The position numbers and the translations under genes were made by a program. A DNA stretch of 64,000 bases from Arthrobacter sp. MAHUQ-56. GTDB lineage: Bacteria > Actinomycetota > Actinomycetes > Actinomycetales > Micrococcaceae. Where the stretch lies: contig NZ_JAIFZQ010000017.1 of the NCBI RefSeq assembly GCF_019710585.1, positions 124,001-188,000 on the forward strand, written 5' to 3'. Below the pieces are notes generated by a model that was not told where the DNA came from, made no database searches, and was given only the letters and a program-made list of their open reading frames with translations. This document shows, piece after piece, positions 40,059 through 62,486 of this stretch (position 1 is the first letter of the stretch; each line of letters opens with the position of its first letter).

Positions 40059-40163
40059 CAGTACTTCTCTCAGTTCCCGAGTAACCGCGCCGATAACGCG
40101 CTATTTCCTGACCAAGACAACGTCGTCATAACCCGCGCCGTAAAGGCGCGCAGGAGGAAACTC

Positions 40164-42985: not shown

Positions 42986-44965
42986 TTACGCAAGGAACTC
43001 GTGATCGTCGGCCTTGACCGTCTCCGTCGCTTCCCAGTACTCAACATTGGTGTAGGGCCATACTTGCGACACCCGGCCGTGCGAGTTCTGATACCAACTG
43101 CGCACGTAAGGCTGCCCCCAAGCCATCCGGCGGTTTCCGGCGTCGACCCATTCCACAAACCGGTCCAGAGCGGCTGGCGTGACGTCGATCGCGGAGGCGC
43201 CACGCTGCAGGACCTCGTGGACCGCCTTCAGGGAGAATTCAACGGCCCGCTCGATCATGAAGTGCAGGCTTCCCGCCACCACTCCTCCAACGTTGGGGCC
43301 ATAGATCAGGAAGAAGTTGGGGAACCCGGGCACAGTGACACCGTTGTAGGCCCTGGCGTCGCCCTTCCAGAAGTCGTGGATCTCCACGCCCTCGCGGCCA
43401 ACAACCTCCACCTCGTCGAGGTAATCGGAGGGTTTGAACCCAGTGGCGAAAACCACGATGTCCACCTCGTGGTCAACGCCGTCGTTGTCAACAATGCCGC
43501 TTTCAGTGAACCGGTCGATCCCCGCGGTGATCACCGTGGTGCGCTCGGACTTAAGGGCCGCAGCCCACACACCGTTGTCACGCAGCATCCGCTTGGCACC
43601 GGGCGGGTAGTTGGGAATAGCGTTCTCCAGCAGTTCAGGGCGGTCTGCGAACTGCTCCTTGAGGCGCTCGATCAGCACCTCCCGAACGTCCTGGTTCTTG
43701 GCGGAGACACTCAAGGGCGCCCCTTGCCACCCATCCTCGGCCGTCACGGTGTGCATGCGGCCCGGGATGCCCTGAAGTGTCACCCACAGGCGGTACCACT
43801 GGGCGTAGTGGGGCACCTTGCGCCGCAACCAGTCAAAGGTGTCACTGACGGTGTCGTGATAATTGGGAGCCGGCAGCATCCACGGCGCGCTGCGCTGGAA
43901 CAGCACCAGCCCGTCGACCTCGTCCGCCAGCGCGGGCACAATCTGATACGCGCTGGCACCGGTGCCGATGACCGCCACGCGCTTGCCGCGGTAGTCGGCG
44001 TCGTGCGACCACTCCTGCGAATGCATGGTCACCCCGCGGTACACCTCAACGCCGGGGAAATCGGGAATGTTGGGCCGGTCCAGTTGCCCAAGCGCGCTGA
44101 CTACGGCGGCAAAAGTCCGGACCTGCTCCTGCCCGCCGTGGCGGGTGGTCGCCTGCCACGCGCGGGATTCTTCGTCCCACACCAAGCGGACAAGACGGGT
44201 GTTTAACTCGATGGATTCCACCAGCCCTGCACGCTCGGCCACATCCCGGACGTAGTCCAGGACATCTCCGCCTTCGGCGAACTGATGCGGCCAGTCCCCT
44301 CGCTGGGCGAAGGAATAAGAATAGCCGAACGTGGGCGTATCGAGGCGCACACCGGGGTAGGTGTTCTTCGCCCAGGTCCCGCCTAGGGCGGGTGCGTCTT
44401 CCACCACGGTGAAAGGCACGCCCGCCTGCGAATAGCGATAAGCTGCAGCAATTCCGGCAATCCCAGCGCCGATGATCAGGACGGGAAAGTCACGACCATC
44501 AGCCACCTCCTCAAACTGCCAGCCAGGGGCCCCGCCCTTGTCAGGAGCGAGATCGAGCTCATGCTTCAGCGACGGGTGCCAGTGTTCGCGGCCACCTGTG
44601 AGGAACCCGAGGAGGTCCGTCACGGCGTTGCCCTCCAGCATGTCAACGCTGGTGATTGCCTTGTCCCGCAGCTGGCGCAAGCCCTCCAAGGCCAGCGCCT
44701 TGGCGCGTTCCTGCTGATCCGGTGACATGCCTCCATGTGGATGAGGCTGGGTATCCACCAAGGTCAGGGGAGGCTGCAAGTCGCTCGTGAGGAACGAGGT
44801 GTCGCCCAGTGCCGCCGCAATGGCGGCCAACAGGACGGGAAGTTCGGCCTGCGCAACGATCTTTTCCAGTTCGCCGTCGTCGTCGACAATGGGCTCCGCG
44901 TTTGCCTCCCAGTAGAGGTCGTCAAACCGCGTTGTTCCAGACCTCGTTCCCTGCATGCTGGGCAT
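42986..44965 (-). CDS. Baeyer-Villiger monooxygenase, 4-hydroxyacetophenone monooxygenase-like (paralog)
   Basis: A 659-residue paralog of the enzyme at 40164, with a perfect GGAGG site before the ATG. The HAPMO-type N-terminal extension is present (AELPVLLAAIAAALGDTSFL). IIGAGIAGIAAAYR and GGTWAKN form the FAD site; VIGTGASAYQIVPAL the NADPH site; the fingerprint is YRGVTMHSQEWS, with Tyr for Phe and Ser for Asp at the ends, a mild departure from consensus. Long shared segments with its partner (PYVRSWYQN/PYVTNWYKN endings, YPGVRLDTPT) show a duplication. It is the last gene of a three-gene operon behind the FAA-family hydrolase and FAD hydroxylase. Confidence 0.92.
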   Translation of the reverse strand: MPSMQGTRSGTTRFDDLYWEANAEPIVDDDGELEKIVAQAELPVLLAAIAAALGDTSFLTSDLQPPLTLVDTQPHPHGGMSPDQQERAKALALEGLRQLRDKAITSVDMLEGNAVTDLLGFLTGGREHWHPSLKHELDLAPDKGGAPGWQFEEVADGRDFPVLIIGAGIAGIAAAYRYSQAGVPFTVVEDAPALGGTWAKNTYPGVRLDTPTFGYSYSFAQRGDWPHQFAEGGDVLDYVRDVAERAGLVESIELNTRLVRLVWDEESRAWQATTRHGGQEQVRTFAAVVSALGQLDRPNIPDFPGVEVYRGVTMHSQEWSHDADYRGKRVAVIGTGASAYQIVPALADEVDGLVLFQRSAPWMLPAPNYHDTVSDTFDWLRRKVPHYAQWYRLWVTLQGIPGRMHTVTAEDGWQGAPLSVSAKNQDVREVLIERLKEQFADRPELLENAIPNYPPGAKRMLRDNGVWAAALKSERTTVITAGIDRFTESGIVDNDGVDHEVDIVVFATGFKPSDYLDEVEVVGREGVEIHDFWKGDARAYNGVTVPGFPNFFLIYGPNVGGVVAGSLHFMIERAVEFSLKAVHEVLQRGASAIDVTPAALDRFVEWVDAGNRRMAWGQPYVRSWYQNSHGRVSQVWPYTNVEYWEATETVKADDHEFLA

Positions 44966-44983: not shown

Positions 44984-46579
44984 TCAGCGCGGCGCGAGCG
45001 GGTCGACGTACGACCGCAGTTTGTTGATGACAGCCTGCTCGCTATGCTCTGTGAACACGGCAGCGACGTAACGGTCCGGTCGAACCACGACTGTGTGGGG
45101 TTTCGTCAGCCCCGGTAATGCGAGGACCCGTCCGCTGTCAATCAGGAGTGGCTCGTTGCCGTTTCCGGGTGATGCGGGGGGATGTCCCACCAGTCGAAGC
45201 CGGCGGGCACCGAGCAAGGACCAGAACTCGTTTCCCACAACTGCTCGGGTGCTTTCGGCTTCGAGGGTGATGAGTGCCCAGCCGCTACCCAAAAGGGAGT
45301 CCAGCGGGGCTGTGAGGCCGTCCTCATCGGTTGCTGAAGGCTGACTCAGGGCACGGCCCACCCAGGCCGCTACTCGGCGGTCAACGTCGCGACCTGATTT
45401 GATCGCCACGCCGTTGCGGTAGTCCGGTGGAGTGATGAACCGCATCGATCCCAGGTAGCGGTGGACAGCGGGAATCAGGCTGACCGTACGGAAGGCAATG
45501 TCCCGGAGGTTGGTTCGGAACGCACCGACTGCCATGACCACCGCGCCGGTCCTGCGCGAAACCCTGACCATCTTCGCCGCGTGGGTGCGACGTTCAGATT
45601 CGTAGGTGGACAGCAGCCGATCCGTGCCAACGCCGCGAAGCACCTCAAGCAGCTTCCAACTCAGGTTGAGGGCATCACGCAGGCCTGCGTTCAACCCTTG
45701 TCCGGAAAAGGGAGGCATCAAGTGTGCCGCATCCCCGATCAGGAAAGCGCGCCCCGAACGGTATGTGCGTGCCAGGCGCTGGTGCGCTACATAAACCACA
45801 GCACGCCGGACGTCTTCGGTGCGGAGCTCCGGGTGGAAGGGTCTGGACAGCTCCAGGATCTTTTCCGGGGACGTCATTTCATCCGCGTCTTCGTGATCGA
45901 AAAGCATGAACTCAAGCCGCAGGCGGCCCTTGATTCCAGGAACCAGGACGTAGGGACGAGTCCCGTTGCCGTGGAACTCGGCGAAAGGTTCGCGTGTCCC
46001 GGGGACGTTGATCAAGTCCACCACAATCCATCGTTCCTGCTGGGTGGAACCTACCAGGTCGATGCCCAGGCTCTCGCGGACAAAGCTGCGACCGCCATCT
46101 GCCCCAACAAGCCAGGAGGCCGTCACGGTGCCGGCGCCGGCGTCGGATTCGAATCCGAGGCACACGCCGTCGGATTTCCGGTTGATGGAAGTTACCTGCG
46201 CACCGGCGAGGAACTCAATCCCTTGGTGGTTCCGGGCCTTGTTCCACAACAGCTCTTCCAGCACGGGCTGGTCGAACTGCGACTTCGCAGGATGCCCGAT
46301 ACGGGAGGGAACGGGCGTGGACGAAGCAAGTGGCCTGTCATTCAGCCCAAAGTAGCGGCTGCCGGTTCCCAGCAGCGATTCCGCCTTCAGCGCGTCCGCG
46401 AGGCCCAAGCGGTCCATCGTCCGGAAGGTTTCGTCAGCGATGCTGATAGCTCGCGGCAGATCCATCGGCGCCGTGGCGGTTTCGAGCAGCACAACGCGTG
46501 CACCGCCGTCGGCAAGCAACAGGGCCGCCGTAAGTCCCACCGGACCGGCCCCCACGACCGCAACTTCGAAGTCCTCCAT
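44984..46579 (-). CDS. FAD-dependent aromatic hydroxylase (MhpA/PheA-like)
   Basis: A 531-residue class A flavin monooxygenase from ATG at 46579 (GGAGGT upstream). VAVVGAGPVGLTAALLLAD is the FAD site, LVGADGGRSFVRE the DG motif and LIGDAAHLMPPFSGQGLNAG the GD motif. It corresponds in cluster position to the enzyme at 37607. It lies 20 nt after the hydrolase gene and 18 nt before the BVMO gene. The substrate is probably a monophenol; specificity is unknown. Confidence 0.92.
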   Translation of the reverse strand: MEDFEVAVVGAGPVGLTAALLLADGGARVVLLETATAPMDLPRAISIADETFRTMDRLGLADALKAESLLGTGSRYFGLNDRPLASSTPVPSRIGHPAKSQFDQPVLEELLWNKARNHQGIEFLAGAQVTSINRKSDGVCLGFESDAGAGTVTASWLVGADGGRSFVRESLGIDLVGSTQQERWIVVDLINVPGTREPFAEFHGNGTRPYVLVPGIKGRLRLEFMLFDHEDADEMTSPEKILELSRPFHPELRTEDVRRAVVYVAHQRLARTYRSGRAFLIGDAAHLMPPFSGQGLNAGLRDALNLSWKLLEVLRGVGTDRLLSTYESERRTHAAKMVRVSRRTGAVVMAVGAFRTNLRDIAFRTVSLIPAVHRYLGSMRFITPPDYRNGVAIKSGRDVDRRVAAWVGRALSQPSATDEDGLTAPLDSLLGSGWALITLEAESTRAVVGNEFWSLLGARRLRLVGHPPASPGNGNEPLLIDSGRVLALPGLTKPHTVVVRPDRYVAAVFTEHSEQAVINKLRSYVDPLAPR

Positions 46580-46599
46580 GGTGTTACCTCCACGCATCC

Positions 46600-47442
46600 C
46601 TAAGCAACGAGGACGTTGCGAAGGGTGCCGAGCTTGCCGACCTCGACCTCAACCACGTCACCGGGGACCAGGAATGTTGGCGGCTCCATGAACAGCCCCA
46701 CACCGCCGGGCGTACCGGTGACAATGACGTCGCCCGGAGCCAGCGGAGTGAACGCGGTGACGTACTCCATGATGGCGGGGATGTCGAAGATGAGGTCGGC
46801 CACGGCGGCACGCTGCCTCACCTCACCGTTGACGCGGGTTTCCACCACGAGTTCGGTGACGTCACCGACTTCCTCGGCGGACATGAAGTATGGGCCGAAG
46901 GCTCCGCTCAGCGGGAAGTTCTTGCCAGGGGTCCACTGACCCGTGTGGCGCTGCCAGTCGCGGGCGCTGAAGTCGTTGAACGCTGCGTAGCCGGCAATGT
47001 AGTTCCAAGCCTCTTCCGGCTTGACGTGATCCGCGTGGGCTCCGATTACCAGTGCGACTTCGCCTTCGTAGTCGTACATGGAGCTTTCGGCGGGGATCGG
47101 CAGGTCTGCGCCGTGGGCAGCCAGGGTATCTGAGAAACGTGCGAAGACGGTGGGCTTGCCGACCGAGTCGCGTCCGGTTTCTTCTTGGTGGCTCCTGTAG
47201 TTGACGCCGATGCAGATCACCTTCCCGGGGGTGGACAGAAGCGGCAGGAATGTGGTCCCCTCAACCGGTTGCGACGGCGCGTTGTCCGACGCCAAGGGGG
47301 CCGACAGCAAGCCTTCCACGATCGCCGTCTGCAGGGACGGGCTGAGGTTGGCACCGCTGGGCCCCAGGTCCAGAAGCTCTCCATCGGCTTCAAGGCCCCA
47401 CGTGGTCTGTCCGTCCTGATTGAGGTAACTCGCGTAGCGCAT
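46600..47442 (-). CDS. Fumarylacetoacetate hydrolase family protein
   Basis: A 280-residue FAH-fold enzyme from ATG at 47442 (GAAAGGA upstream). CIGVNYRSHQEE, YDYEGEVALVIG (metal Glu pair), FNDFSARDWQ (metal Asp), SGAFGPYFM and TGTPGGVG are complete family motifs, closer to the acylpyruvate hydrolase / 2-hydroxyhepta-diene-dioate isomerase type than its cluster-1 counterpart. It heads the operon, and the AT-rich palindrome at 47503-47520 lies 61 nt upstream. Confidence 0.92.
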   Translation of the reverse strand: MRYASYLNQDGQTTWGLEADGELLDLGPSGANLSPSLQTAIVEGLLSAPLASDNAPSQPVEGTTFLPLLSTPGKVICIGVNYRSHQEETGRDSVGKPTVFARFSDTLAAHGADLPIPAESSMYDYEGEVALVIGAHADHVKPEEAWNYIAGYAAFNDFSARDWQRHTGQWTPGKNFPLSGAFGPYFMSAEEVGDVTELVVETRVNGEVRQRAAVADLIFDIPAIMEYVTAFTPLAPGDVIVTGTPGGVGLFMEPPTFLVPGDVVEVEVGKLGTLRNVLVA

Positions 47443-47768
47443 GTTTATCCTTTCTGCGACCGGGGTCATTCCTCCCGGCCGTACCTGTATTTGGAATCAA
47501 GATTGATAATGCATTATTAAACCATGAATGTATAGCTAGGGTAAGTGTGTATGCACTTTTACTGCACCAAGTGCCGCTCCAGGCCCCCGGGCTTCCTGAT
47601 TACGGACACGGGAAGAACTCCGCTGTCGGGGCGCACTTGCGTGCAGTGTGGAGGAATACGGCCTCACTCTTGCCATTGAGCCGGCCAGCCGTCCCGGGAC
47701 ACATCGAAGCCTCCATCCGGCCTCCCGAAGCCGGGCTGCCGAGGGAGTAGGGGCAGCCCGGTCCGGTT
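47443..47768. other. Intergenic region between hydrolase operon and dioxygenase remnant
   Basis: No gene is supported. It holds the palindrome at 47503-47520; the rest is GC-rich and shows no family-like translation. Confidence 0.5.
47503..47520. promoter_or_regulatory. AT-rich palindrome upstream of the second hydrolase operon, candidate TetR operator
   Basis: TTGATAATGCATTATTAA is symmetric at 8 of 9 base pairs around ATGCAT. It stands out from its GC-rich surroundings. Similar but weaker elements are TGAATGTATA at 47525 and TGAATGTATTA at 53236, the latter in front of the ABC transporter gene. The TetR regulator at 48935 is the likely ligand. Confidence 0.45.
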
Positions 47769-48224: not shown

Positions 48225-48938
48225 CTAGACGGAGCGTGACGCGCCACCATCCACGCGGATGTTCTGGCCTGTGATGTAGCTGGATTCCCCGCTGGCGAGG
48301 AAACGGATGACGCTGGCCACTTCTTCGGTGCCGGCAGCCCTGCGCAGTGGTATCCGGGAAGTCCATTCAGACGGCACAGCATCGGGGTCTTCCTTGGTGA
48401 AGCCAGGGAGGACGTTGTTCATCCGGATCCCGGACGGCCCGTACTCGTCCGCATACAGCTTGGTAAAGGAACCCAGGGCGGCACGAAAAGTCCCGGAGAC
48501 CGGGTATTTAGGGTTCGGTTCATAGGGTGAACTCGTGGAGACATTGACAATCGATCCCCCGCCGGCAGCAAGCAAATGGGGAGTCACGATTCGCGCGATC
48601 CGAATGACGTTCAAAAGGTACAGCTCGTAACCTTCGGTCCATTCGTCATCGCTGATCTCCAGCACCGGCTTCCTGGCAGCGTGGCCGGAGCTGTTGATGA
48701 CGACGTCGATACGCCCACCTGCGGACAGCGCCAGCTCCGTGATTGCCTCAAGATCCGCAACGGAGCGGTTGGAACCTTCCAGCCCCACCCCGCCCAGGCT
48801 GCGGGCCAGTTCCATGGCACTTCCGGACGGGGACATGGCGGCAACCCGGAATCCGTCCGCCGCCAAGGCCCGGATAGTTGCGGCCGCGATCCCGCGTCCG
48901 CCTCCGACAATCAGTGCGACGCGGTCCTGGCTTTTCAT
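48225..48938 (-). CDS. Atypical short-chain dehydrogenase/reductase
   Basis: A 237-residue SDR. LIVGGGRGIAAATIRAL is the cofactor loop, VINSSGH stands for the NNAG motif, and VDGGAS ends the protein. The active site is unusual: after the catalytic-strand VNVSTSS, aligning the following AAL shows S-G-T-F-R where Y-x-x-x-K is expected; a Tyr sits three residues too early. It may have a different mechanism or not be a dehydrogenase. It overlaps the TetR gene by 4 nt. A 14-nt perfect palindrome AGGTGCCGGCACCT covers its stop region (48213-48226), next to the dioxygenase remnant. Confidence 0.88.
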   Translation of the reverse strand: MKSQDRVALIVGGGRGIAAATIRALAADGFRVAAMSPSGSAMELARSLGGVGLEGSNRSVADLEAITELALSAGGRIDVVINSSGHAARKPVLEISDDEWTEGYELYLLNVIRIARIVTPHLLAAGGGSIVNVSTSSPYEPNPKYPVSGTFRAALGSFTKLYADEYGPSGIRMNNVLPGFTKEDPDAVPSEWTSRIPLRRAAGTEEVASVIRFLASGESSYITGQNIRVDGGASRSV

Positions 48939-49630
48939 GCCCGCTCCCCCATGGCACCCAGCTCAGCGTAGTGCTGCACGAGTTTTTCCATGGCCAGGGC
49001 AGAAAGCTCTGCTGCCTCGGCGAAGTCGATCTGGTCCCCGGCCGACGCCGAAATGTAGAACCCATCTGTCAGTGCGCGGCCGAGCATGACCACCTTGCGG
49101 GCGAGATCCGGCTTGACGTCCAGCGCTTCCTGCGGGATGCCCGGCGTCACTGCCTCGACCATAAGTTCGTACATCTCCTCACGGACTTCCAAGTACTTCT
49201 GGCGTGCCGCGTTGCCCGCCAACCGCTTCTCAAGCGCGAAGAGCAGGCCGATGATCCAGAACGCTTCCTGCGCATTGGCAGGATCGGCGGAGTTCGCGGC
49301 AGAACCGGCGATACTCGTGCGGAGGATGGCCCTGTTTTCGGGGCCGCGGTGGCGCGTCTTCCAGTGCTCGAAGCAGTAGTCGATCAGGGCGGCGAACAAG
49401 CCTTCCTTGTTCTCGAAATGCCAGTACACCGAGCCGATCGGCAGTCCAGCCACGCGGGCCACCTCTGCCATCGTCGTTCCCTCGTAGCCCACCTTCACAG
49501 CGAGCTGCAACACGGCTTCCAGGATGGCGCGTTCGTTTTCCGGCGTGGACTGGTGGACCCGGCGCCGCTTGCCAGCCTCCGGCTTGTCTCCTCCGTTGTT
49601 CCTTGCCTCGGCGTCTGCCCGCGGGCTCAT
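48935..49630 (-). CDS. TetR family transcriptional regulator
   Basis: A 231-residue regulator. The N-terminal tail is charged; the HTH spans about 30-80 (EGTTMAEVARVAGLPIGSVYWHFENKEGLF), then a helical ligand-binding domain. It overlaps the ABC ATPase gene upstream and the SDR gene downstream by 4 nt each, an unusual position inside a transporter operon. It probably responds to an aromatic compound and controls the transporter and the hydrolase-hydroxylase-BVMO operon; the palindrome at 47503 is a candidate target. Confidence 0.92.
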   Translation of the reverse strand: MSPRADAEARNNGGDKPEAGKRRRVHQSTPENERAILEAVLQLAVKVGYEGTTMAEVARVAGLPIGSVYWHFENKEGLFAALIDYCFEHWKTRHRGPENRAILRTSIAGSAANSADPANAQEAFWIIGLLFALEKRLAGNAARQKYLEVREEMYELMVEAVTPGIPQEALDVKPDLARKVVMLGRALTDGFYISASAGDQIDFAEAAELSALAMEKLVQHYAELGAMGERA

Positions 49631-50463
49631 GAGGGCAACCCATCCCGGACGGACATCCGTTCGCCGCCTGGGTTGGTCTTGGCGAACTGAACTTCCTCGT
49701 ACACTTGGTGGCGAAGTTCGCCGAAGCGGTGCAGGGACCGTGTGTCAGCCTGGCTGCGGACATCGGGAAGGTCGATGTGGATGTCAGCCTGGACAATAGT
49801 GGGCGAGCTGGACAACACCAGGACGCGTTCAGCCAGGTAGACGGATTCGTCAATGTCGTGGGTCACGAAGAGGATGGTCATGTCCAACCGCTTCCAGACT
49901 TCACGGACCAGGTCCTCCAGCTCTCCCCGGGTTTGCGCGTCGACTGCAGCGAACGGCTCGTCCATGAGCAGGACACTGGGGTTGGAAGCCACGGCACGGG
50001 CGATCGCCACGCGCTGCTGCATGCCCCCGGAGAGCTGCCACGGGTAGCTCTTGGCAGCGTGGGACAGGGTGACTGCATCAAGCGCATCCTTGACCCGGGC
50101 CTTACGCTCAGCCTTGGGCACGCCGGAAGTCTTGAGCGGCAGCTCGACATTGTCCTCGACACTCAACCAAGGGAAGAGGCTCCGGCTGTATTCCTGGAAG
50201 ACCACGGCCATGCCCTCGGCGGGCCCTGAGACGCGCCTGCCATCCAGGACCACTTCACCGGATGTTGGATCCAGGAGCCCGGCAATGCATTTGAGCAGCG
50301 TCGTCTTTCCGGAACCGGAGGGCCCTACCAGGCAGGCAAACTCCCCGGCGTGGAGATCGAAGGTCAGGGACCGAACAGCCTCCACCTCGTTCCGAGAACC
50401 GGCGCCGTAGACCTTTCGCACCTGCTGGACACTGAGCCGGATATCCGACTTGCTAGCCGTCAT
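49627..50463 (-). CDS. NitT/TauT-type ABC transporter ATP-binding protein
   Basis: A 278-residue ATPase with Walker A GPSGSGKTT, Q-loop VFQEYSRSLFPW, signature LSGGMQQRVAIARA, Walker B LLMDEPFAAVDAQ and VTHDIDES. It overlaps the upstream permease gene by 11 nt and the TetR gene by 4 nt. With two permeases and a binding protein it forms an importer of the family often used for aromatic acids such as phthalates or phenylpropanoids. Confidence 0.94.
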   Translation of the reverse strand: MTASKSDIRLSVQQVRKVYGAGSRNEVEAVRSLTFDLHAGEFACLVGPSGSGKTTLLKCIAGLLDPTSGEVVLDGRRVSGPAEGMAVVFQEYSRSLFPWLSVEDNVELPLKTSGVPKAERKARVKDALDAVTLSHAAKSYPWQLSGGMQQRVAIARAVASNPSVLLMDEPFAAVDAQTRGELEDLVREVWKRLDMTILFVTHDIDESVYLAERVLVLSSSPTIVQADIHIDLPDVRSQADTRSLHRFGELRHQVYEEVQFAKTNPGGERMSVRDGLPS

Positions 50464-51226
50464 TGGAGGCCTCCTTCAGACCGTAATACCATCCCAGAAC
50501 CCGCTTCTGGATTGCTTGGAACACCACTGAAAGCAGCACTCCGATGATCCCCAGAAGAAATATTCCGCTCCACATTTCGGGGATCGCAATGCGGTTCTGG
50601 AAGTTAATAATGGAGTAGCCAATACCGTCGGTCGAAGCGAACATCTCCGAGACGACCAAGAGGATAAGCCCCACTGCAAGGCTATGCCGGATGCCGGCCA
50701 TGATGAGTGGCGAAGCGCCGGGAAGCACCAGGTAGCGGATGCGGTCGAATCCGCGGAGCCGGTATACGAGCGCCGTATTCTTCAGCACCTCGTCGAGCGA
50801 CCGTACGCCTTCGATCGTATTGAGCAGGATGGGCCAGAGGCAGCCCAGGACGATTACGGTGATCTTCATTGCGTCATTGATGCCAATGAGCAGGAGCAAC
50901 ACCGGGATGAGAATGGTGGAAGGCACTGCCCGGATGAATTCAAGCAAGGGCTCCAGAAGCCAGCGCAAGGTGCGCGAGAGCCCGATGGCGATCCCCAGCG
51001 CCACCCCGAGTACCAGGGAGACGGCAAGGCTTATGAGCAGTCGGCCCATGCTGGGCATCACGTCTGTAAAGAACTTCTCGCTGAACCACACTGTGACGAA
51101 CGTGTTGGCAAGTTTGTCCGGCTTCGGAACAAAGAAGTTGACTCCCTGGGCTGTGAACGCCCACCAAACAGCGATGAGGATTGCCGGCAAACCGAACCAC
51201 AAAGCCAGGCGTTTGAGGACGATCAT
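50453..51226 (-). CDS. NitT/TauT-type ABC transporter permease
   Basis: A 257-residue permease from ATG at 51226, which overlaps the stop of the preceding permease gene (ATGA); the frame is open further upstream but only as a shadow of that gene. About six membrane segments; the coupling loop reads YRLRGFDRIRYLVLPGASPL. It pairs with the permease encoded just upstream, so the importer has a heterodimeric channel. Confidence 0.93.
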   Translation of the reverse strand: MIVLKRLALWFGLPAILIAVWWAFTAQGVNFFVPKPDKLANTFVTVWFSEKFFTDVMPSMGRLLISLAVSLVLGVALGIAIGLSRTLRWLLEPLLEFIRAVPSTILIPVLLLLIGINDAMKITVIVLGCLWPILLNTIEGVRSLDEVLKNTALVYRLRGFDRIRYLVLPGASPLIMAGIRHSLAVGLILLVVSEMFASTDGIGYSIINFQNRIAIPEMWSGIFLLGIIGVLLSVVFQAIQKRVLGWYYGLKEASNDG

Positions 51227-52083
51227 GCCGCCACCTCCGAACGGACCGAGCTGTGCCAGAACAGCACCTTGCGCTCGATGAAGCGGAAAATAAGGTTCAC
51301 CAGAATGCCCAGGAGGCCGGATGTCAGGATAAGGGCGATCATCGCCGCCGGATTGTCGTTCAGCTGGGCCTGCGCCACAGCCCGGCCAATACCGGGCGTA
51401 CCGACAATGAGTTCGGAACTGATTGCCAGGATAAGGGCGACTGTGGCAGCGAGGCGGATGCCGGTCATCAGATATGGGAGGAGCGTAGGCAATACCAGAT
51501 GCCGGACCCGCTGGAGCCACGTCATGCGCAGGGTTCGGACGGTGTCATCGGCCACTTTGTCGATGTCCGTGATGCCGTACATGGCCTGGATCATCACAAT
51601 CCAGAAGCAGCCGTAAACCACAATCAGGAGTTCGGCGCCGATGCGCGGCCCGAACAACAATGCGGCCAACGGAATGAGGCCTACAGCAGGGATGGGGCGC
51701 AGGAACTCCACCGTGGTGTGCGTGCCAGTGCGCAGCAAGCTGCTCGACCCGATAAGCAGGCCAACGGCGAGGCCGCCGAAGGTGGCGAGGGTCAGCCCAA
51801 GGAACCAGGCCCACATCGTCTGGCCCACCGTGAGCCAGAACTGCGTAAAGGTGAAGTTGTTAAGGAAGGTAGGAATGACCACCGATGGTGGTGGCAGGTG
51901 GTGCTGGCTGACTGGGCCAAAGGCTGAGAAGAGCTCCCAGGCAATGAGTGCCGCCAGGATGCCGGCGACACCCAGGACGTAGGGCCCCGCAGCAGTCCAC
52001 TGGGCAGCGCGGCGCGCTGTGTGTCCCCGCGTGGGCAGGGTACTCACTGCCACGCTGCTCAGGATTGGAGTTTGCGTTTCCAC
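51223..52083 (-). CDS. NitT/TauT-type ABC transporter permease
   Basis: A 286-residue permease with a basic N-terminal tail and six to seven hydrophobic segments. The coupling loop is LRMTWLQRVRHLVLPTLLPYLMTGIR-like (positions about 180-205). It lies 75 nt after the binding-protein gene. Two different permeases with one ATPase is less common in this family, where a homodimer of one permease is usual. Confidence 0.92.
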   Translation of the reverse strand: METQTPILSSVAVSTLPTRGHTARRAAQWTAAGPYVLGVAGILAALIAWELFSAFGPVSQHHLPPPSVVIPTFLNNFTFTQFWLTVGQTMWAWFLGLTLATFGGLAVGLLIGSSSLLRTGTHTTVEFLRPIPAVGLIPLAALLFGPRIGAELLIVVYGCFWIVMIQAMYGITDIDKVADDTVRTLRMTWLQRVRHLVLPTLLPYLMTGIRLAATVALILAISSELIVGTPGIGRAVAQAQLNDNPAAMIALILTSGLLGILVNLIFRFIERKVLFWHSSVRSEVAA

Positions 52084-52158
52084 GGTTCTTGTTCTGCTCT
52101 CATTTGTGCGATCAGTTGGCTGTCGGGGCCGCAGGGGGGAGCGGCCCCGACAGCGGCT

Positions 52159-53154
52159 TTATGGCTTCCAGATCACCTTCGCCACATCGGGTTTGGTGTT
52201 CACGATGCCGTACTTGACGAGCAGATCAGCGAACAACTGGATGGTTTCCTGTGAGACGTCCGGGCTGTAGAGCGAGAGCTGGGCTTTTTTCGCAGCGGCC
52301 GGATCGGTGCCGAGGGCCGCCGGCATGGCTTCGCGGATCAGACCATTGTTTTCGGTCAGGAAAGGCAGGGCCTCCTTCATGGCGTCCGTGAACCGCTTGA
52401 CCTTGTCAGGATCACTTTGCACCAGTTTGCCACTGGAGATGGAGACCAGTTCGTTGGCGCCAAGGCCGGTGTCGTGAATGAAGTCACTGACGACCCGGCC
52501 GCCCTTGGCCACTACCTGTTGCATGAAGGGAGAGCCCGCCATGCCGGCGTCGATCTGGCCCGCTTCGATCTGGGCTGCAACCTCCGGGAAAGACAACTGG
52601 ACGAACGTCACCTTCTTCGGGTCACCACCGTCCTTGGCTATTGCTTCCCGGATACCGATCTCGCCGATGCCTCCCAGCGCGTTGACGGAGACCTTTTTGC
52701 CTTCAAGGTCCCTGGCGGTCTTGATGGTGGACGAGGCGCCCACTACTACGGCGGTGGAGTCTTCCACGGTCTTGGGGTCGTTTTGGGTGACACCTTCGAC
52801 GATGCGGACATCGAGCCCCTGGGTGGTGGCCGTCAGCGCCGTCACCGGGCTTGCCAGCATAAAATCCAGGTCGCCGGTTGCCAGCGCCGGAAGCTGTGCC
52901 GCGCTGCTGCCTGCTCCTACTACCAGTTGCAGGTCGATGCCATGCTTTTCGAAAAAGCCTTTGTCCTTGGCGACCTGGAATGCTGCCACGGTGTTGGACG
53001 GGAAGATCCCGTAGGTGACCTTGGTCAGCGCTCCGGAGTTGGTGTCTGCGGCGGCGGGGGCGCTGCCGTCAACAGATCCGGATGCGCAGCCGCTGAGTGC
53101 CAGGGCCAGGGCTACGACTCCGATGGCCGCTGTACGACTTTTCTTGATGTTCAT
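52159..53154 (-). CDS. NitT/TauT-type ABC transporter substrate-binding lipoprotein
   Basis: A 331-residue lipoprotein from ATG at 53154 with AAAGGAGAG 7 nt upstream. Signal peptide KKSRTAAIGVVALALALSGC with the lipidated Cys at residue 23; then an SsuA/TauA-like domain (AKDKGFFEKHGIDLQLVVGA; ARDLEGKKVSVNALGG; AAQIEAGQIDAGMAG). It lies 117 nt downstream of mhpA, so it may be part of the same transcript or have its own promoter near the TGAATGTATTA element at 53236. Confidence 0.93.
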   Translation of the reverse strand: MNIKKSRTAAIGVVALALALSGCASGSVDGSAPAAADTNSGALTKVTYGIFPSNTVAAFQVAKDKGFFEKHGIDLQLVVGAGSSAAQLPALATGDLDFMLASPVTALTATTQGLDVRIVEGVTQNDPKTVEDSTAVVVGASSTIKTARDLEGKKVSVNALGGIGEIGIREAIAKDGGDPKKVTFVQLSFPEVAAQIEAGQIDAGMAGSPFMQQVVAKGGRVVSDFIHDTGLGANELVSISSGKLVQSDPDKVKRFTDAMKEALPFLTENNGLIREAMPAALGTDPAAAKKAQLSLYSPDVSQETIQLFADLLVKYGIVNTKPDVAKVIWKP

Positions 53155-53270
53155 TGATTCGCTCTCCTTTGAGTGAACGCTGCGTGGCCTTTGCCTGCGG
53201 TCTTTACCAACGGGTGGCAGCAACGGAATTTGAAGTGAATGTATTAGTGCGGATTACGGAGCCTGAATTC

Positions 53271-54914
53271 TTATGCGTTCTGTGGTTCCAAAGTGACCGC
53301 TGCCGCGCTGAAGACCTGCTTTAAGACGCCGTTCAGTTCCTGCGCGAGGCACTCGGCGGCCACCACATGGTCCGGCCTCACAACGATTGCTGAGAAGGAC
53401 CTTTCATCAAACCAAGACTTCAAGACACCGCTTTCGTCGCCCACCACGCGGACTCCAGGTGCAGCTGCAGCTTTCGCCCACGGCAGCTGGGAGGCCGGCA
53501 CCGCGTGAACCATCACGCCGCCGAGTCCGGTGAGCTTTTCCACCTCAACCTCAGCGATGAATGCCAGGGGGTCATTGTTCCAGACGACCACCCGCCAGCC
53601 CTGGCCCGTGGCGTCGTCGAGCAGGACCGACTGGCCGTTCTCATTTTGGACCGTCGGCTGTGGGAACAGGGTTCCCACCGCACGCGGTGCGTCTTCCCGG
53701 TCCGGCAAGGATTTCCAGGCGGGAAGGGCGGATGGGACCACTACGCCGTGATCGTACTTGGGCATCGGTTTGTAGCCCTGGCTGTTGAGCCGTGCGCGGG
53801 CCTTGGGGAGCCGATCTACTACCGCGGCGGCAATGTCCCGGACAGCCGTACGCAGCCTGTTGTGGTCCGTGACGAGATTTGCCATGTTCAGGGACAACGC
53901 GACCATGGCCTTCACATGTTCACGGCGCTCATCCTCGTAGGAATCCAGCAAGCTGTCATTCGCTTTGCCTTGGACCACGGCTGCAAGCTTCCAGCCCAAG
54001 TTCAACGCGTCCCGGATGCCGGAGTTCCACCCTTGGCCGGCCACGACCGGCATGACGTGGGCGGCATCGCCCGCCAGCAGGAAACGTCCCACCCGGAACT
54101 TCTCCGCGACGCGGGCGTGATGGGCATAGACCCGACGGCGGATGATGTCTAAGCTTGCTGGATCCGGAACGTGGGGAGCAAGGAGCGAGAAGACGAATGC
54201 ATCGTCCTCGGCCACTTCTTCGGATTCACCTTCGAACAGCGTGAACTCCCAGCGGCGAATGCCGTGGGGCAGGCTCAGCGTGGCGTAGCCGCGGCTTGGG
54301 TCTCCCCCAAATACCGCGTGGGGTGTGCCGATGGGATCGTTGGCGACGTCGATCACCAGCCCGCGGGTCGACCGGGTTTCGCCTTCGAACGCCAAGCCAA
54401 GGTGCTGACGTGTCAACGACCGGCCACCGTCGCAACCCACAACGTAGCTGCCGGTAACCCGCTCCTCACCGGTGGGTGTGCTGACGGTGGCGGTGACGCC
54501 GTCGGAAGCTGACTCGAAAGCTTCAACGCGGCAACCGAAACGCACCTCCACATGCGGATAGCGTGCGAGGCCTTCGAGCAGGGCCTCGTCAACCAGGGGC
54601 TGGATAAAGCCGTTACGTCGGGGCCAGCCGAATTCACGCGTCGTTGGGTTGATTTCCGCCAGCACCTTGCGATCACCGTTGACGATGCGGATCTTCTGGT
54701 CCGGAACCGTGTGCGGCAGCACCTTGTCCACCAAACCGATGGTCTGCATGGTCCGGAGGGCCTCATCGTCAATTCCGACAGCGCGAGGGTAGTCGATAAG
54801 TTCATCGCGGCCTTCAAAGACCACAGTGCTTACGCCAAACTGGCCAAGGAGGTTGGCCAGGGTCAAACCGACCGGCCCGGCTCCAACGATAATGACGTCC
54901 TTGCGGTCGCTCAT
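53271..54914 (-). CDS. mhpA: 3-(3-hydroxyphenyl)propionate hydroxylase (MhpA)
   Basis: A 547-residue class A flavoprotein hydroxylase, near the length of E. coli MhpA (554). Shared stretches include LIDYPRAVGIDDEALRTMQ, GLVDKVLPHT, EFGWPRRNGFIQP and RRVYAHHARVAEKFRVGR, and the GD motif LLAGDAAHVMPVVAGQGWNSG; these are unusually close to MhpA and separate it from the two other hydroxylases in this window. It makes 3-(2,3-dihydroxyphenyl)propionate. It overlaps the aldolase gene by 4 nt and ends the mhp operon. Confidence 0.93.
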   Translation of the reverse strand: MSDRKDVIIVGAGPVGLTLANLLGQFGVSTVVFEGRDELIDYPRAVGIDDEALRTMQTIGLVDKVLPHTVPDQKIRIVNGDRKVLAEINPTTREFGWPRRNGFIQPLVDEALLEGLARYPHVEVRFGCRVEAFESASDGVTATVSTPTGEERVTGSYVVGCDGGRSLTRQHLGLAFEGETRSTRGLVIDVANDPIGTPHAVFGGDPSRGYATLSLPHGIRRWEFTLFEGESEEVAEDDAFVFSLLAPHVPDPASLDIIRRRVYAHHARVAEKFRVGRFLLAGDAAHVMPVVAGQGWNSGIRDALNLGWKLAAVVQGKANDSLLDSYEDERREHVKAMVALSLNMANLVTDHNRLRTAVRDIAAAVVDRLPKARARLNSQGYKPMPKYDHGVVVPSALPAWKSLPDREDAPRAVGTLFPQPTVQNENGQSVLLDDATGQGWRVVVWNNDPLAFIAEVEVEKLTGLGGVMVHAVPASQLPWAKAAAAPGVRVVGDESGVLKSWFDERSFSAIVVRPDHVVAAECLAQELNGVLKQVFSAAAVTLEPQNA

Positions 54915-55663
54915 TCTGTGCCCCTCAGGGTCTTGATGGATTCCTGTGCCGCACGGCTAAGGAATACGAGGTCGATGCCGAGGCCGACGTAGTCGATGAG
55001 TTCCCGGTCAAGAAGGTCAGCTGCGTAGGCACCGGATCCCGAGTAGATGCCCAAGGTGACGTCGTGTTCCCTCGTCAAAGCTGCCAAGTGGATGATGGCT
55101 TCCCGGACCGGTCCGTCGTCCCAGTCTCCCCGGCCGGGAAGGCCGAAGGAAACTGCCAAGTCGGCCGGTCCGATGTAGATGGAATCCAGGCCGGGAGTGG
55201 TGACGATCTCTTCCGCGTTCTTCAAGCCCGCCACTGTTTCAATCTGGGCGATAGTGGACACTGCGTGGTTGCCGGCCTCCGGGTAGGACTCTCCCTTATA
55301 TAATGCGGGTCTGCTGGGACCGAGGCTGCGGTTGCCCACGCCGGGGTACTTGGTAGCTTCCACCAGCATTCGCGCTTGTGCGCCCGACTCGATGGTGGGG
55401 GCGATGATTCCGCGTGCGCCACTGTCCAGTAGACGAAGGATGGATGCCGGATCGAGGCTTCCCACCCGGGCATAGGTGTAGGCGGACTCGCGGGGTGCGG
55501 CCCGCAGCATGGTGCAGGCTGCTTCGAGTCCCACTTCGCCGTGCTGCAGGTCGACCACTACGCCGTCGTATCCGGCTGCAAGCGCCCACTCCGTGACGGA
55601 GAGGGAGGGAATGGCTTGGTGCAACAGGGCGGGCGGCTGGCCGCCGCGGCTTTCCCACTTCAT
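54911..55663 (-). CDS. HpcH/HpaI family aldolase
   Basis: A 250-residue metal-dependent class II pyruvate aldolase from ATG at 55663, overlapping the NTF2-like gene (ATGA). YDGVVVDLQHGEVG (catalytic His), ARVGSLDPASILRLLDSGARGIIAP, a Gln-Ile-Glu metal ligand in AQIETVAG and YIGPADLAVSFG are family marks. In E. coli the last steps use MhpE (an HMG-lyase-type aldolase) plus MhpF; here neither is present in the operon, and this protein probably cleaves 4-hydroxy-2-oxopentanoate-type intermediates to pyruvate and an aldehyde. Confidence 0.9.
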   Translation of the reverse strand: MKWESRGGQPPALLHQAIPSLSVTEWALAAGYDGVVVDLQHGEVGLEAACTMLRAAPRESAYTYARVGSLDPASILRLLDSGARGIIAPTIESGAQARMLVEATKYPGVGNRSLGPSRPALYKGESYPEAGNHAVSTIAQIETVAGLKNAEEIVTTPGLDSIYIGPADLAVSFGLPGRGDWDDGPVREAIIHLAALTREHDVTLGIYSGSGAYAADLLDRELIDYVGLGIDLVFLSRAAQESIKTLRGTE

Positions 55664-56112
55664 TTGGCGGTGCTTTCCGTCAGGCGCTTGGCGTGGGCGG
55701 CAGCGTTCATTCCGCCGAAGATGGGGTTGATCTCGCGTCGCGCGATCTTCCACTCGCCGTCTACCTCGCGGTAGACCTCCCGGAATTCACCTACGCTGGC
55801 AGGCATGAGTGGGTTCTCCGAGGAGTCCCGGAAAGTCAGGTACTGCGTCCAGCCGCGGAGTTCCTCGCCGACCCATTCCAAGCGGATGCCGCCGATAAGG
55901 TGGCGACCCACAACTCCCGTGACTTTGGCGCGACTTTCGCCCCAGGCCCTGATGGCGTCACGGCCATCCATGTCCCCCAGGGGACCGGTGGATACAGCGT
56001 CTTCTGTGTAGAGCTCCCAGGTCGTGTCCGCCTTGCCGTGATCGAGGCGCCACAGCAATTCCGCGACGAGTGCCTCGATCGCCACCCGGGTTTCGATTGT
56101 CACCTTACGCAT
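55660..56112 (-). CDS. SnoaL/NTF2-like protein of the mhp operon
   Basis: A 150-residue cone-fold protein (NTF2/SnoaL-like): AELLWRLDHGKADTTWELYT, MDGRDAIRAWGESRA, GEFREVYREVDGEWKIARREI. Relatives include hydroxylating-dioxygenase small subunits, ketosteroid isomerases and polyketide cyclases. It lies inside the overlapping mhp genes (8-nt overlap with mhpD, 4-nt with the aldolase), where E. coli has no counterpart. An isomerase or hydrolase-assist role on the ring-cleavage product is possible but unproven. Confidence 0.85.
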   Translation of the reverse strand: MRKVTIETRVAIEALVAELLWRLDHGKADTTWELYTEDAVSTGPLGDMDGRDAIRAWGESRAKVTGVVGRHLIGGIRLEWVGEELRGWTQYLTFRDSSENPLMPASVGEFREVYREVDGEWKIARREINPIFGGMNAAAHAKRLTESTAK

Positions 56113-56905
56113 CGACGGCCTCCGTCAGGTGTGCGACGACGTCTCCGAACCCGTGGGAGTACTTGGCCGTGTACGTAATGTGGGGATCCCAGTCCACGAT
56201 CAGGCCGATGGATCCGGAGAGCAGGATCTCTCCCGCGCGAAGGGGTTTGCCGATCCTCAACGAGGTTTCCGCCAACCACTGGACGGCGTTGATGGGATCA
56301 CCCATGACGTTGCCTCCGACGCCGCGCGTCAGTTCTTCGTTGCCGCGGTAGAGGACCATCTCCACTTGTTTGAGGTCGACTTCGCCGTAGGGGACGCGGA
56401 CAGATCCTGTGACGATTCCCTCGCACGCGGCGTTATCGGCGATCGTGTCAACGATGCCCATCTTGTAGCTGTGATAGCGGTTATCCACCAGTTCCATTGC
56501 AGGCGTTACATAGTCGATGGCCGCTTCCACTGATGCCAGGTCCGAATCCAGGATGTCTGATTTCAGGACGAAAGCCAGCTCGGCTTCGATCTTGGGGTGG
56601 AAGTACGCTGACGACGGCCGTTCAACCGGGGACTCAAAGACCATGTTGTCGAGAATGATGCCGTAGTCCGGCTCGTCCACGCCGGCACGCTCCTGGACCA
56701 CAGGATTGGTCAGGCCAACCTTCCGGCCAACACGACGGCGGCCTTCCGCGGCTTCGCGCTGCTGGGTGACGAGTTCGGAGATGCGGTAGGCGGCGTCCTT
56801 GTCCTTCTCCGGCAGCCGGTGGCGAACGAATTCGATAGGGGTGCGCGTTGTACGCGCTTTGTAGAGATCGTCAGCGATCTCCGTAATGATGTCCGGCATC
56901 TTCAT
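56105..56905 (-). CDS. mhpD: 2-keto-4-pentenoate hydratase (MhpD)
   Basis: A 266-residue hydratase from ATG at 56905, overlapping the mhpC stop (TGATG); a second Met two codons later is possible. VGRKVGLTNPVVQE, DYGIILDNMVFES, KIEAELAFVLK (metal Glu pair) and ELVDNRYHSYKMGIVDTIADNA are typical. It adds water to 2-hydroxypenta-2,4-dienoate, giving 4-hydroxy-2-oxopentanoate, the substrate for the aldolase two genes on. Confidence 0.92.
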   Translation of the reverse strand: MKMPDIITEIADDLYKARTTRTPIEFVRHRLPEKDKDAAYRISELVTQQREAAEGRRRVGRKVGLTNPVVQERAGVDEPDYGIILDNMVFESPVERPSSAYFHPKIEAELAFVLKSDILDSDLASVEAAIDYVTPAMELVDNRYHSYKMGIVDTIADNAACEGIVTGSVRVPYGEVDLKQVEMVLYRGNEELTRGVGGNVMGDPINAVQWLAETSLRIGKPLRAGEILLSGSIGLIVDWDPHITYTAKYSHGFGDVVAHLTEAVDA

Positions 56906-57765
56906 CACGCCTTTCTGCTGAGGAAGTCGAGTGCTTTTTCGTTGAATGTCGTGGGATCCTCCCACTGCGGCCAATGGGCGGCGTTGCGGATCAGCGCGAA
57001 TTCGCCGTCAGGAATTGCCGCCGCCAGGGTCTCGCCTGTTGCCACACCGCCGGTCGGTTCATGGTCCGTCCACACGAGCAGGGCCGGCACCGGGATGGCA
57101 GCATAGTCTTCCTTGGTCACTTGGTTCCGTGCGCGGATGTCCGGAACCTGGAGCGCCATGATGTGCTCCATGGAGGTGATGAAGCCCGGCCGGCCGTAGA
57201 CGGCACGGCGTACTTCCACCAGCTCGTCCGTAATCTGTTCAGGATTGTGGATGACGACTTGTAGCCGCGCCTTGACGTTCTCGTAGCTGGGATCCTCCAC
57301 GGCCTTGCGGCTAACTGGGCTGACGCGGTCCATGGACGTAGGGCCCATCATGCGGCCGCCGGGAGCGCTTAGGACAATGGTGTGCAGGCGCTCGGGGTGG
57401 CGGGCGGCGAACTTGATGGCGATCCACCCACCGAGGGACTCGCCCAGGAGGTGGACCTTGTCCAGGCCGAGCACATCCAGGAGCTCCAGGAGATGTGCCT
57501 CGTAATCCGGGATTTCCAGGTCGGCATCAGCCAACGTGGAAAAGCCATGCCCGGGGTAGTCGTAACCGATGACCTTGTAATTCTGGGCCAGCGCCCGGAG
57601 GTTGTGGGTCCATGCTTCAATGTGCCCGCTGGTGCCGTTGAGGAGGACCAAGGTCTGTTCGCCGGCGCCCACTGTGAGAACCCGTGTGCGCCATGGTCCT
57701 ACTTGGACATACTCAAGGGTGTGGGGAAGATCGGCGATCTCGCCCCACATGGTTACCTGGGTCAT
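56905..57765 (-). CDS. mhpC: Alpha/beta hydrolase, 2-hydroxy-6-oxonona-2,4-dienedioate hydrolase (MhpC)
   Basis: A 286-residue meta-cleavage product hydrolase (E. coli MhpC is 288). LLNGTSGHIEAW is the oxyanion region, LLGESLGGWIA carries the nucleophile Ser, an Asp lies in LLVWTDHEP and NAAHWPQWEDP holds the His. It hydrolyses the ring-fission product to 2-hydroxypenta-2,4-dienoate and succinate. Its start overlaps mhpB by 4 nt. Confidence 0.92.
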   Translation of the reverse strand: MTQVTMWGEIADLPHTLEYVQVGPWRTRVLTVGAGEQTLVLLNGTSGHIEAWTHNLRALAQNYKVIGYDYPGHGFSTLADADLEIPDYEAHLLELLDVLGLDKVHLLGESLGGWIAIKFAARHPERLHTIVLSAPGGRMMGPTSMDRVSPVSRKAVEDPSYENVKARLQVVIHNPEQITDELVEVRRAVYGRPGFITSMEHIMALQVPDIRARNQVTKEDYAAIPVPALLVWTDHEPTGGVATGETLAAAIPDGEFALIRNAAHWPQWEDPTTFNEKALDFLSRKA

Positions 57766-58703
57766 GCGTTCTGGGGAAGAGCAGCTGTGATGCCGAAGCC
57801 GGCGCCCCAGGTCTTAACCGGCCAGTAGCGGTCCACGACCATGCTGTAGTCCCCCGCCGTCGACAATGCGCTGAAGGCCGCGATCCAGGAACGCATCTCA
57901 TGCGCCGCGCTTCCGCCTTCGGCGATGAACTCATCATTGTCCCAGCAATCCACGTCGCTCAGGGAACCAGAACGGAACACCTTCATCAGCTTCTGGTCCC
58001 ATTCCTCATTAAGGGGCGCGCTGGATGCCCGACCGTCCGCAATGGCCTGGATGCCCTCAATGATCTTTCCTTCGCGGGCTGCACGGTCTTCTTTCGACGG
58101 GGCATAAGAGACCAATCGCTGCTGCACAGGTTCGGGCGCGCCGTCGTACTCGGGAATCGGCGGGTTGTGGGAGAGCCCGCCCGAGGCCACCAGGAGAACG
58201 CGCTTGTCCAGTTGCTGGGCAGCGCGACCCAACGCCTCACCCATCAGACGGATCCGGGCCATGGGGGTAAGGGGCTTTCCGATGGCGTTCACGAATACGG
58301 GAACGAATGGGTTGGTGAAGCCCGAGCCAAACAGGAATTCGAGCGGCTGCATGACGCCGTGGTCAACTTCGAGGCGCTCGGAGCGGGCGATGTCTATTCC
58401 CTGGGCGATGGTGAGCGCGTGCAGTTCCCGAGCAGTCCGGGAATCGACAGGAAGGGGCCCTTCGCCGGTTCCGTAGTCACCAACGCCCACGGCCTGCGCA
58501 CCAATGGCGAACGGCGGCATCATCGAATAGAGCACGCCGTTGAAGTGGTCCGGGCCGAAGATGACGGTGACGTCCGGGTCGAAGTCCTCAACGAATGAGC
58601 GGACTTCTCCCAGGGCCTCGTTAATTTCCGCGAAAATCGTTCCGCCTGGATCGACGTTTCCAAATGATGGCGCGTGTGACAACGCGGCAAGTGCAAGCGA
58701 CAT
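57762..58703 (-). CDS. mhpB: 2,3-dihydroxyphenylpropionate 1,2-dioxygenase (MhpB)
   Basis: A 313-residue LigB-type extradiol dioxygenase, matching E. coli MhpB (314). ATG at 58703 has GAGAGGGAAA upstream. FGPDHFNGVLYSMMPPF, VDHGVMQPLEFLFG (catalytic His) and ASGGLSHNPPIPE (second His) follow E. coli MhpB closely. It cleaves 3-(2,3-dihydroxyphenyl)propionate. First gene of the mhp operon. Confidence 0.95.
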   Translation of the reverse strand: MSLALAALSHAPSFGNVDPGGTIFAEINEALGEVRSFVEDFDPDVTVIFGPDHFNGVLYSMMPPFAIGAQAVGVGDYGTGEGPLPVDSRTARELHALTIAQGIDIARSERLEVDHGVMQPLEFLFGSGFTNPFVPVFVNAIGKPLTPMARIRLMGEALGRAAQQLDKRVLLVASGGLSHNPPIPEYDGAPEPVQQRLVSYAPSKEDRAAREGKIIEGIQAIADGRASSAPLNEEWDQKLMKVFRSGSLSDVDCWDNDEFIAEGGSAAHEMRSWIAAFSALSTAGDYSMVVDRYWPVKTWGAGFGITAALPQNA

Positions 58704-62339: not shown

Positions 62340-62486
62340 AAAGATCACATCACTTTCGGTGAAGGTGCCGCGGGTGCGGCAACGAATTGGGTCGCCTCGG
62401 TCTAAGGCGTTTCTTTCATCATGGCAAGCCGAATTCATCAAGTAAATGCCATGTTTTTGCTCATGCTCATCAGTAGAATTGACAAT

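Follow-up and report, generated by a model that had tools for sequence, protein, structure and literature searches.

How does a meta-cleavage pathway end when the two enzymes that usually finish it are missing from its operon, and what might a small protein encoded in the same place contribute? The question is raised by a stretch of 64,000 nucleotides from Arthrobacter sp. MAHUQ-56 (contig NZ_JAIFZQ010000017.1, positions 124,001 to 188,000; hereafter the window), in which six minus-strand genes at 53271-58703 follow one another in the order MhpB-MhpC-MhpD-SnoaL/NTF2-HpaI-type aldolase-MhpA, with neither the MhpE aldolase nor the MhpF acetaldehyde dehydrogenase among them. The best reading of our data is that this operon is a conserved actinobacterial variant of the mhp-type lower pathway and not a local oddity. 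Its genes are as follows.

57762..58703, minus strand: MhpB-type LigB extradiol dioxygenase, 313 amino acids (PF02900, 137.5 bits; NF009910, 429.7 bits, above the cut-off of 291); His115 and His179 kept
56905..57765, minus strand: MhpC-type alpha/beta-fold C-C hydrolase, 286 amino acids (PF00561); Glu236 where Escherichia coli and ordinary actinobacterial MhpC have Asp
56105..56905, minus strand: MhpD/HpaH-type hydratase of the FAH superfamily, 266 amino acids (PF01557; NF008461, 203 bits, and HpaH, 183 bits, both below cut-off)
55660..56112, minus strand: SnoaL_4/NTF2-like protein, 150 amino acids, proposed acid-base isomerase or dehydratase (PF13577, 60.3 bits, above 24)
54911..55663, minus strand: HpcH/HpaI class II pyruvate aldolase, 250 amino acids (PF03328, 83.8 bits, above 25, scored with a longer frame)
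53271..54914, minus strand: MhpA-type FAD hydroxylase, 547 amino acids (PF01494, 274.2 bits; NF004831, 557.1 bits, above 546)

Successive genes overlap by 4, 1, 8, 4 and 4 nucleotides, in agreement with a preliminary description of this DNA that had reported six genes overlapping by 1-8 nucleotides and an NTF2-like gene (56112-55660) lying between those of the hydratase and the aldolase. The starts of MhpD (ATG at 56905, the longer TTG frame being unneeded) and of the aldolase (ATG at 55663) were read by eye. Besides NF004831, MhpA passes the subfamily model NF004829 (399.8 against 390 bits) and fails its best-scoring model, NF004828 (679.5 against 853); both MhpA and MhpB thereby exceed the NCBIfam cut-offs of models for the mhp, or 3-hydroxyphenylpropionate (3HPP), operon. 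The NTF2-like protein had no match at E <= 0.001 in the NCBIfam scan, and is placed in the SnoaL_4/NTF2-like superfamily by its domain score and predicted fold.

The absence of MhpE and MhpF from the operon, also stated in the preliminary description, extends to the whole genome (4.57 Mb, 26 contigs, completeness 100), in which the best MhpE match reaches 35.6 bits against a cut-off of 286 and MhpF has no match at all. The first MhpE and MhpF searches returned nothing over cut-off in 14 control genomes, E. coli included. In repeat searches on 12 genomes, both cut-offs were passed in the two genomes known to hold both enzymes (G657 and G365), and the searches can therefore be taken to work. MhpE and MhpF remained below cut-off in five of the ten operon-bearing genomes (G000, G135, G104, G172 and G385, the window's genome among the five), and the aldolase in these therefore has no such enzyme to lean on. 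The earlier suggestion that the aldehyde is dealt with elsewhere is tenable, since the genome has 24 matches to the aldehyde dehydrogenase family PF00171, none of them on the window's contig (C9), and oxidation of a free aldehyde away from the operon is therefore possible.

To define the distribution of the operon, a pattern scan with the NTF2-like protein across one genome per species (84,980 species) gave 27 loci, 24 of them at 60-78% identity. These come from Sinomonas, Streptomyces, Nocardioides, Georgenia, Salinibacterium, Amycolatopsis, Agromyces and one Limnohabitans metagenome-assembled genome, and it is on this point that the preliminary description needs amending: the replacement of MhpE and MhpF holds, but it is not a one-off within a standard 3HPP operon, as the module recurs in these other genera. 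The Limnohabitans genome (L026) carries the entire six-gene operon, which would reflect either transfer to Pseudomonadota or a binning error. Pattern-scan loci, eight stretches from genomes of the same family and three from a draw across the class together made 35 loci with an NTF2-like protein at >100 bits; the window is excluded from these and two repeats are included (L104 = L018, L115 = L034). Loci L001-L015 and L043-L072 (short, and largely refetched at greater length), L040-L042 (distant), L073 (E. coli) and L112 and L113 (the window's own flanks) were left out of the counts.

The order MhpB-MhpC-MhpD-NTF2-HpaI-MhpA is contiguous and on one strand in 34 of the 35 loci, the exception (L025) being cut by a contig end, and gaps between the genes nowhere exceed 97 nucleotides. 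The aldolase invariably accompanies the NTF2-like protein: it is present in all 35 loci, with a median gene overlap of 4 nucleotides, start codons having been picked by script. MhpE and MhpF are nearby in none. Two of the loci (L016 and L114) have two LigB dioxygenases in one cluster, respectively 46-47% and 66-69% identical to that of the window, and the L016 cluster also includes a PcaF-like thiolase and a CoA-transferase subunit.

A counter-sample was drawn from MhpB, which had a match in 96 of 394 genomes of the class; 50 stretches were taken around 51 matches of at least 250 bits outside the window's genome, matches of 131 bits or less being left out and some stretches being short (L126, 4.1 kb). 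In this independent draw the NTF2-like protein was present in three stretches and the HpaI aldolase in the same three. Among the 47 MhpB loci without the NTF2-like protein, none had an HpaI aldolase at >100 bits and nine had both MhpE and MhpF within the stretch; the remaining 38 showed neither at >100 bits within the fetched stretches, so that the lower pathway is out of view there. The same association holds across 295 genomes of the family, in which the aldolase (E <= 1e-40) was found in nine and the NTF2-like protein (at least 58% identity) in the same nine; three further genomes have weaker NTF2 matches, and G151 has one as its second copy. None of these 12 matching genomes other than the window's own is of the same genus, and the operon is therefore best regarded as an accessory set. 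Related genomes share ancestry, and hence none of these locus and genome counts represents as many independent events. Pairwise distances of the NTF2-like protein correlate with those of the other five operon proteins at r 0.89-0.95, highest for HpaI (0.95) and with MhpA at 0.94, within a range of 0.88-0.95 for all pairs among the six. Among the papers listed by literature searches, judged on their titles and the openings of their abstracts and with subscription journals outside the coverage, none describes the combination of NTF2-like protein, HpaI and mhp genes.

The HpaI type of the aldolase, as first proposed, is borne out by its PF03328 match and by the catalytic residues and metal ligands expected of an HpcH/HpaI class II aldolase: H40, R65, Q139, E141 and D167 are invariant in 33 of 33 non-redundant operon copies. 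Its closest solved relative is the hydroxyketoacid aldolase 6r62 (127.9 bits), a likeness drawn from sequence, followed by E. coli HpaI entries. It fails the model for the HpaI equivalog, 4-hydroxy-2-oxoheptanedioate aldolase (TIGR02311, 112.4 bits against a cut-off of 368.8). For the E. coli enzyme, the catalytic residues named in the available text are His45 and Arg70, and the same text reports that it joins pyruvate and acetaldehyde into both stereoisomers of 4-hydroxy-2-oxopentanoate (PMC8560999); an HpaI enzyme can therefore carry out the MhpE reaction without MhpF. The hydrolase sets the operon apart from ordinary mhp loci more clearly than the dioxygenase does. All 33 operon copies have Glu as the acid of the MhpC triad, whereas the 33 ordinary actinobacterial copies compared with them all have Asp, and the two groups differ at 15 near-fixed positions, against only two for MhpB. 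The hydrolase motif GESLGG (GNSMGG in E. coli) had also been considered a peculiarity of the operon and was dropped, as it is present in three ordinary actinobacterial MhpC. MhpD keeps the acidic cluster of its E. coli namesake, with which it shares E106, E108, E137, D79 and K61.

In the NTF2-like protein, 30 positions are invariant over the 33 non-redundant operon copies, including D24, H25, R70, H71 and E109, and D24 remains so even against two more distant relatives (24% and 29% identity). A profile of the protein matched the solved structures 3ef8, a putative scytalone dehydratase (E 4e-4), 2rfr (E 0.001) and Rv3472 (E 0.05), as well as true scytalone dehydratases at E 0.2, with which it shares a His-(Phe/Leu)-Ile-Gly-Gly stretch. 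D24 and H71 align with an Asp and a His of the putative enzyme 3ef8, and H71 with the His of the HFIGG stretch in the weak match to true scytalone dehydratase, whose active site has an Asp and a His. Structure prediction with 12 close sequences as input gave a poor first model (pLDDT 59.3), which was set aside. An AlphaFold2 model from 22 sequences (the window's, 19 operon copies and the two distant relatives) has the NTF2/SnoaL fold at a mean pLDDT of 87.1. Foldseek placed 3ef8 first (E 1.7e-9), and the best 50 matches include the lignin-dimer enzyme LdpA, LinA, ActVI-ORFA, Rieske beta subunits and bile-acid 7-alpha-dehydratase. Among the 50 matches listed, VIA-align gave Z scores of 15-17.7 to NTF2-fold chains: 17.7 for ActVI-ORFA, 16.7 for 3ef8, 15.5 for scytalone dehydratase and 15.2 for bile-acid 7-alpha-dehydratase. 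The predicted fold is thus that of scytalone dehydratase, BaiE and LdpA, at structural-alignment identities of 21% to 3ef8, 18% to scytalone dehydratase and 12% to the bile-acid enzyme, and in a different pathway. Judging from these alignments and the model, the NTF2-like protein is probably an enzyme with a catalytic Asp/His pair. A distant NTF2-like protein also lies right behind an FAH-family gene, in a run of P450 and dioxygenase genes, on a Rhodococcus opacus plasmid (L134, 6081-7423).

From the gene content and order, co-occurrence, absence of MhpE and MhpF, conserved residues and predicted fold, we infer a substrate class and a series of reactions, of which that of the NTF2-like protein is the most conjectural. 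MhpA would convert a substituted phenol to a catechol, whose ring MhpB would open beside the side chain. MhpC would split the ring-cleavage product to give an acid plus a 2-hydroxy-2,4-dienoate, MhpD would hydrate the dienoate to a 4-hydroxy-2-oxoacid, and HpaI would release pyruvate together with a free aldehyde, the latter being oxidised by at least one unlinked aldehyde dehydrogenase. The NTF2-like protein would most likely use Asp24 and His71 for acid-base isomerisation or dehydration of a compound formed after the C-C hydrolase and before the aldolase step, such as the change from dienol to enone ahead of the hydratase, like the 2-hydroxyhepta-2,4-diene-1,7-dioate (HHDD) isomerase of the HpaI-ended 4-hydroxyphenylacetate pathway. 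Gene order equals reaction order from MhpB to HpaI, with the NTF2-like gene between hydratase and aldolase, and in the 4-hydroxyphenylacetate route, as the available text describes it, isomerase, hydratase, HpaI and aldehyde dehydrogenase act in succession (PMC12718150); it is for these reasons that we propose action around the hydratase and aldolase steps. With the two customary final enzymes giving way to a different aldolase and a small protein that accompanies it, the latter probably carries out a chemical step not previously recognised. For the reading as a whole, that of a conserved mhp-type meta-cleavage variant in which an Asp24/His71 catalyst works between C-C hydrolase and aldolase and HpaI frees the aldehyde, we consider the case about evenly poised.

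Several observations weigh against it. MhpC, MhpD and HpaI pass no listed NCBIfam model at its cut-off, and their substrates may therefore differ from those of their namesakes. One locus (L092) lacks the NTF2-like protein and has, some 6 kb away from an ordinary MhpB, a 30% identical HpaI-like gene (86 bits) together with an MhpD-like and an MhpC-like gene. In the other five of the ten operon-bearing genomes (G151, G126, G279, G492 and G380) MhpE and MhpF do score over cut-off, in each case well away from the operon or on a separate contig. When the relatives of 24% and 29% identity are included, H71 falls to the list of nearly invariant positions, and the histidines of scytalone dehydratase outside the shared stretch, among them the second catalytic one (His110), are not kept, its GHAHSAN stretch aligning with ASVGEFR. 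True nuclear transport factor 2 has a VIA-align Z of 16.1, as high as the enzymes, and the fold alone therefore shows no function. MhpD-type hydratases are thought to handle the enol substrate unaided. In the 4-hydroxyphenylacetate pathway, according to the text available, hydratase activity was no higher with added isomerase, and the explanation offered there is that the substrate was in the keto form from the outset (PMC12718150).

What the pathway degrades is suggested by the genes that surround it. Those downstream on the minus strand are as follows.

49627..53223, minus strand: SsuABC/TauABC-like ABC importer (binding protein, two permeases, ATPase), directly downstream of the operon; binding protein by PF09084, ATPase by PF00005, permeases by position and translation
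48225..49630, minus strand: TetR regulator and short-chain dehydrogenase/reductase (SDR) oxidoreductase, an overlapping pair (PF00440, PF13561)
46600..47469, minus strand: FAH-family hydrolase, FAH2 (PF01557, 215.7 bits)
44984..46597, minus strand: second MhpA-like FAD hydroxylase, MhpA2 (PF01494, 224.2 bits)
42986..44965, minus strand: type I Baeyer-Villiger monooxygenase (BVMO) with about 140 extra N-terminal residues (PF00743)

The BVMO matches phenylacetone, steroid and cyclohexanone monooxygenases in the PDB from about residue 159 onward. Counting any match at >100 bits within the fetched stretch, a measure that leaves orthology unproven, the 35 NTF2 loci have an SDR in 30, TetR in 29, the BVMO in 18, the SsuA binding protein in 11, and MhpA2 and FAH2 in 10 each, some SDR and TetR relatives being only 40-48% identical; each of the six is absent from all 47 MhpB loci without the NTF2-like protein. 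This context of BVMO, second hydroxylase, FAH protein, SDR and importer suggests a substrate other than 3HPP, and the recurrence of BVMO, second flavin hydroxylase and second FAH protein with the conserved module means that "mhp" may be the wrong substrate label. Upstream lies a VAO-type flavoprotein (60732-62588) related to eugenol and 4-allylsyringol oxidases, which together with the operon's neighbours suggests a lignin- or phenylpropanoid-type compound and not plain 3HPP. A more specific form of the proposal, in which the NTF2-like protein is a new SnoaL isomerase or dehydratase obligately paired with HpaI, providing an MhpEF-independent finish to a widespread actinobacterial route in which the BVMO would take the first step on aryl ketones or phenylpropanoids, is one we put forward only tentatively.

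The flavoprotein is followed in the window, over 60732-64000, by a LysR regulator and a luciferase-like monooxygenase, and this trio stands beside the operon in one of the 35 loci (L110). At 32491-42173, on both strands, an AXE1 esterase, a CMD protein, an MFS transporter and an IclR regulator accompany a second ring-cleavage set, made up of a VOC extradiol dioxygenase (35750), an FAH hydrolase (36665), an FAD hydroxylase (37607) and a second Baeyer-Villiger monooxygenase (40164). With the minus-strand set, this region looks like one of two adjoining, parallel aromatic pathways.

The neighbouring SDR also bears on the main rival to a role in the lower pathway. SteC and BaiE are catabolic SnoaL dehydratases that act on hydroxyl groups, according to the available text (PMC13101464), and by the same token the NTF2-like protein might act upstream with the SDR on a side chain or ring substituent, for example turning a beta-hydroxy-arylpropionate into a hydroxycinnamate for MhpA, in which case MhpD and HpaI alone would make up the lower pathway. 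Such a role would fit the SDR relatives that 30 of 35 loci have close to the operon, and also the lignin-dimer enzyme LdpA among the structural neighbours; the position of the gene between hydratase and aldolase, its median 4-nucleotide overlap with the latter and the way its presence tracks the aldolase speak against it. Distant relatives of the protein likewise have FAH-family genes as neighbours on two Rhodococcus plasmids and, of four short loci, at L012, L013 and L015 (not at L014), and four other plasmid contexts have no FAH-family gene adjoining. Taken together, we regard upstream dehydration as somewhat unlikely.

A non-catalytic role, in which the NTF2-like protein lends stability to the hydratase or the HpaI aldolase, or assists channelling by either, as a stand-in for the MhpE-MhpF complex, would account for a pairing found in 35 of 35 loci and nine of nine genomes and for the overlap of the two genes. 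Known NTF2-fold helper subunits belong mainly to Rieske oxygenases, and the invariance of D24, H71 and 28 other positions in 33 copies, D24 persisting even in relatives of 24-29% identity, speaks against such a role. Even with the protein-protein help between decarboxylase and isomerase that the available text reports for the 4-hydroxyphenylacetate pathway (PMC12718150), we find this role improbable. Least likely is an ordinary 3HPP operon in which HpaI stands in for MhpE and MhpF and carries the NTF2-like gene along as a passenger it could do without. Although MhpA and MhpB exceed the cut-offs of 3HPP-pathway models, a passenger would hardly be retained in place in 34 of 35 loci, a BVMO is nearby in 18, and the operon MhpC, if scarcely the MhpB, has diverged from its ordinary actinobacterial counterparts.

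The operon has features in common with two known systems. Like mhpABCDFE of E. coli K-12, it is tightly packed and has the same families of hydroxylase, LigB dioxygenase, C-C hydrolase and hydratase; unlike mhpABCDFE, it has the NTF2-like protein and HpaI-type aldolase for MhpF and MhpE, the order B-C-D-NTF2-HpaI-A, TetR/SDR and ABC importer genes as neighbours, and Glu instead of Asp as the MhpC acid. With the homoprotocatechuate (hpa) pathway, on the available texts, it shares a hydratase that feeds an HpcH/HpaI class II aldolase freeing an aldehyde (PMC12718150, PMC8560999). In that pathway HHDD isomerase precedes the hydratase and is a homologue of the N-terminal domain of HpcE, where the window's operon has at best an NTF2-fold protein (PMC12718150, available text). 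Also unlike hpa, entry is by MhpA, MhpB and MhpC types, and the operon has neither a 5-carboxymethyl-2-hydroxymuconate semialdehyde (CHMS) dehydrogenase nor a decarboxylase. Three further systems were considered as matches and rejected on their available texts. The hcdABC genes of Pseudomonas mandelii 7HK4 form a comparable hydroxylase-dioxygenase-hydrolase set for a substituted phenylpropionate, with a type I extradiol dioxygenase and no aldolase or NTF2 protein named (PMC6222606); the isoflavone ifc cluster has FdeE/FdeC-like genes, an alpha/beta hydrolase and cupins, with no aldolase mentioned (PMC11069340); and for Rhodococcus opacus 1CP, BVMO and MhpA-like genes are named, with no such operon (PMC13101518).

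Our data have a consequence for annotation, in that NCBI models call MhpA and MhpB 3HPP enzymes, although their context suggests another substrate. In addition, the hydratase and aldolase genes of 34 of 35 loci enclose the gene for a small conserved protein whose missing function can be tested directly. Should that function be isomerisation or dehydration, a step of meta-cleavage that is usually drawn as spontaneous or assigned to the hydratase would gain an enzyme of its own.

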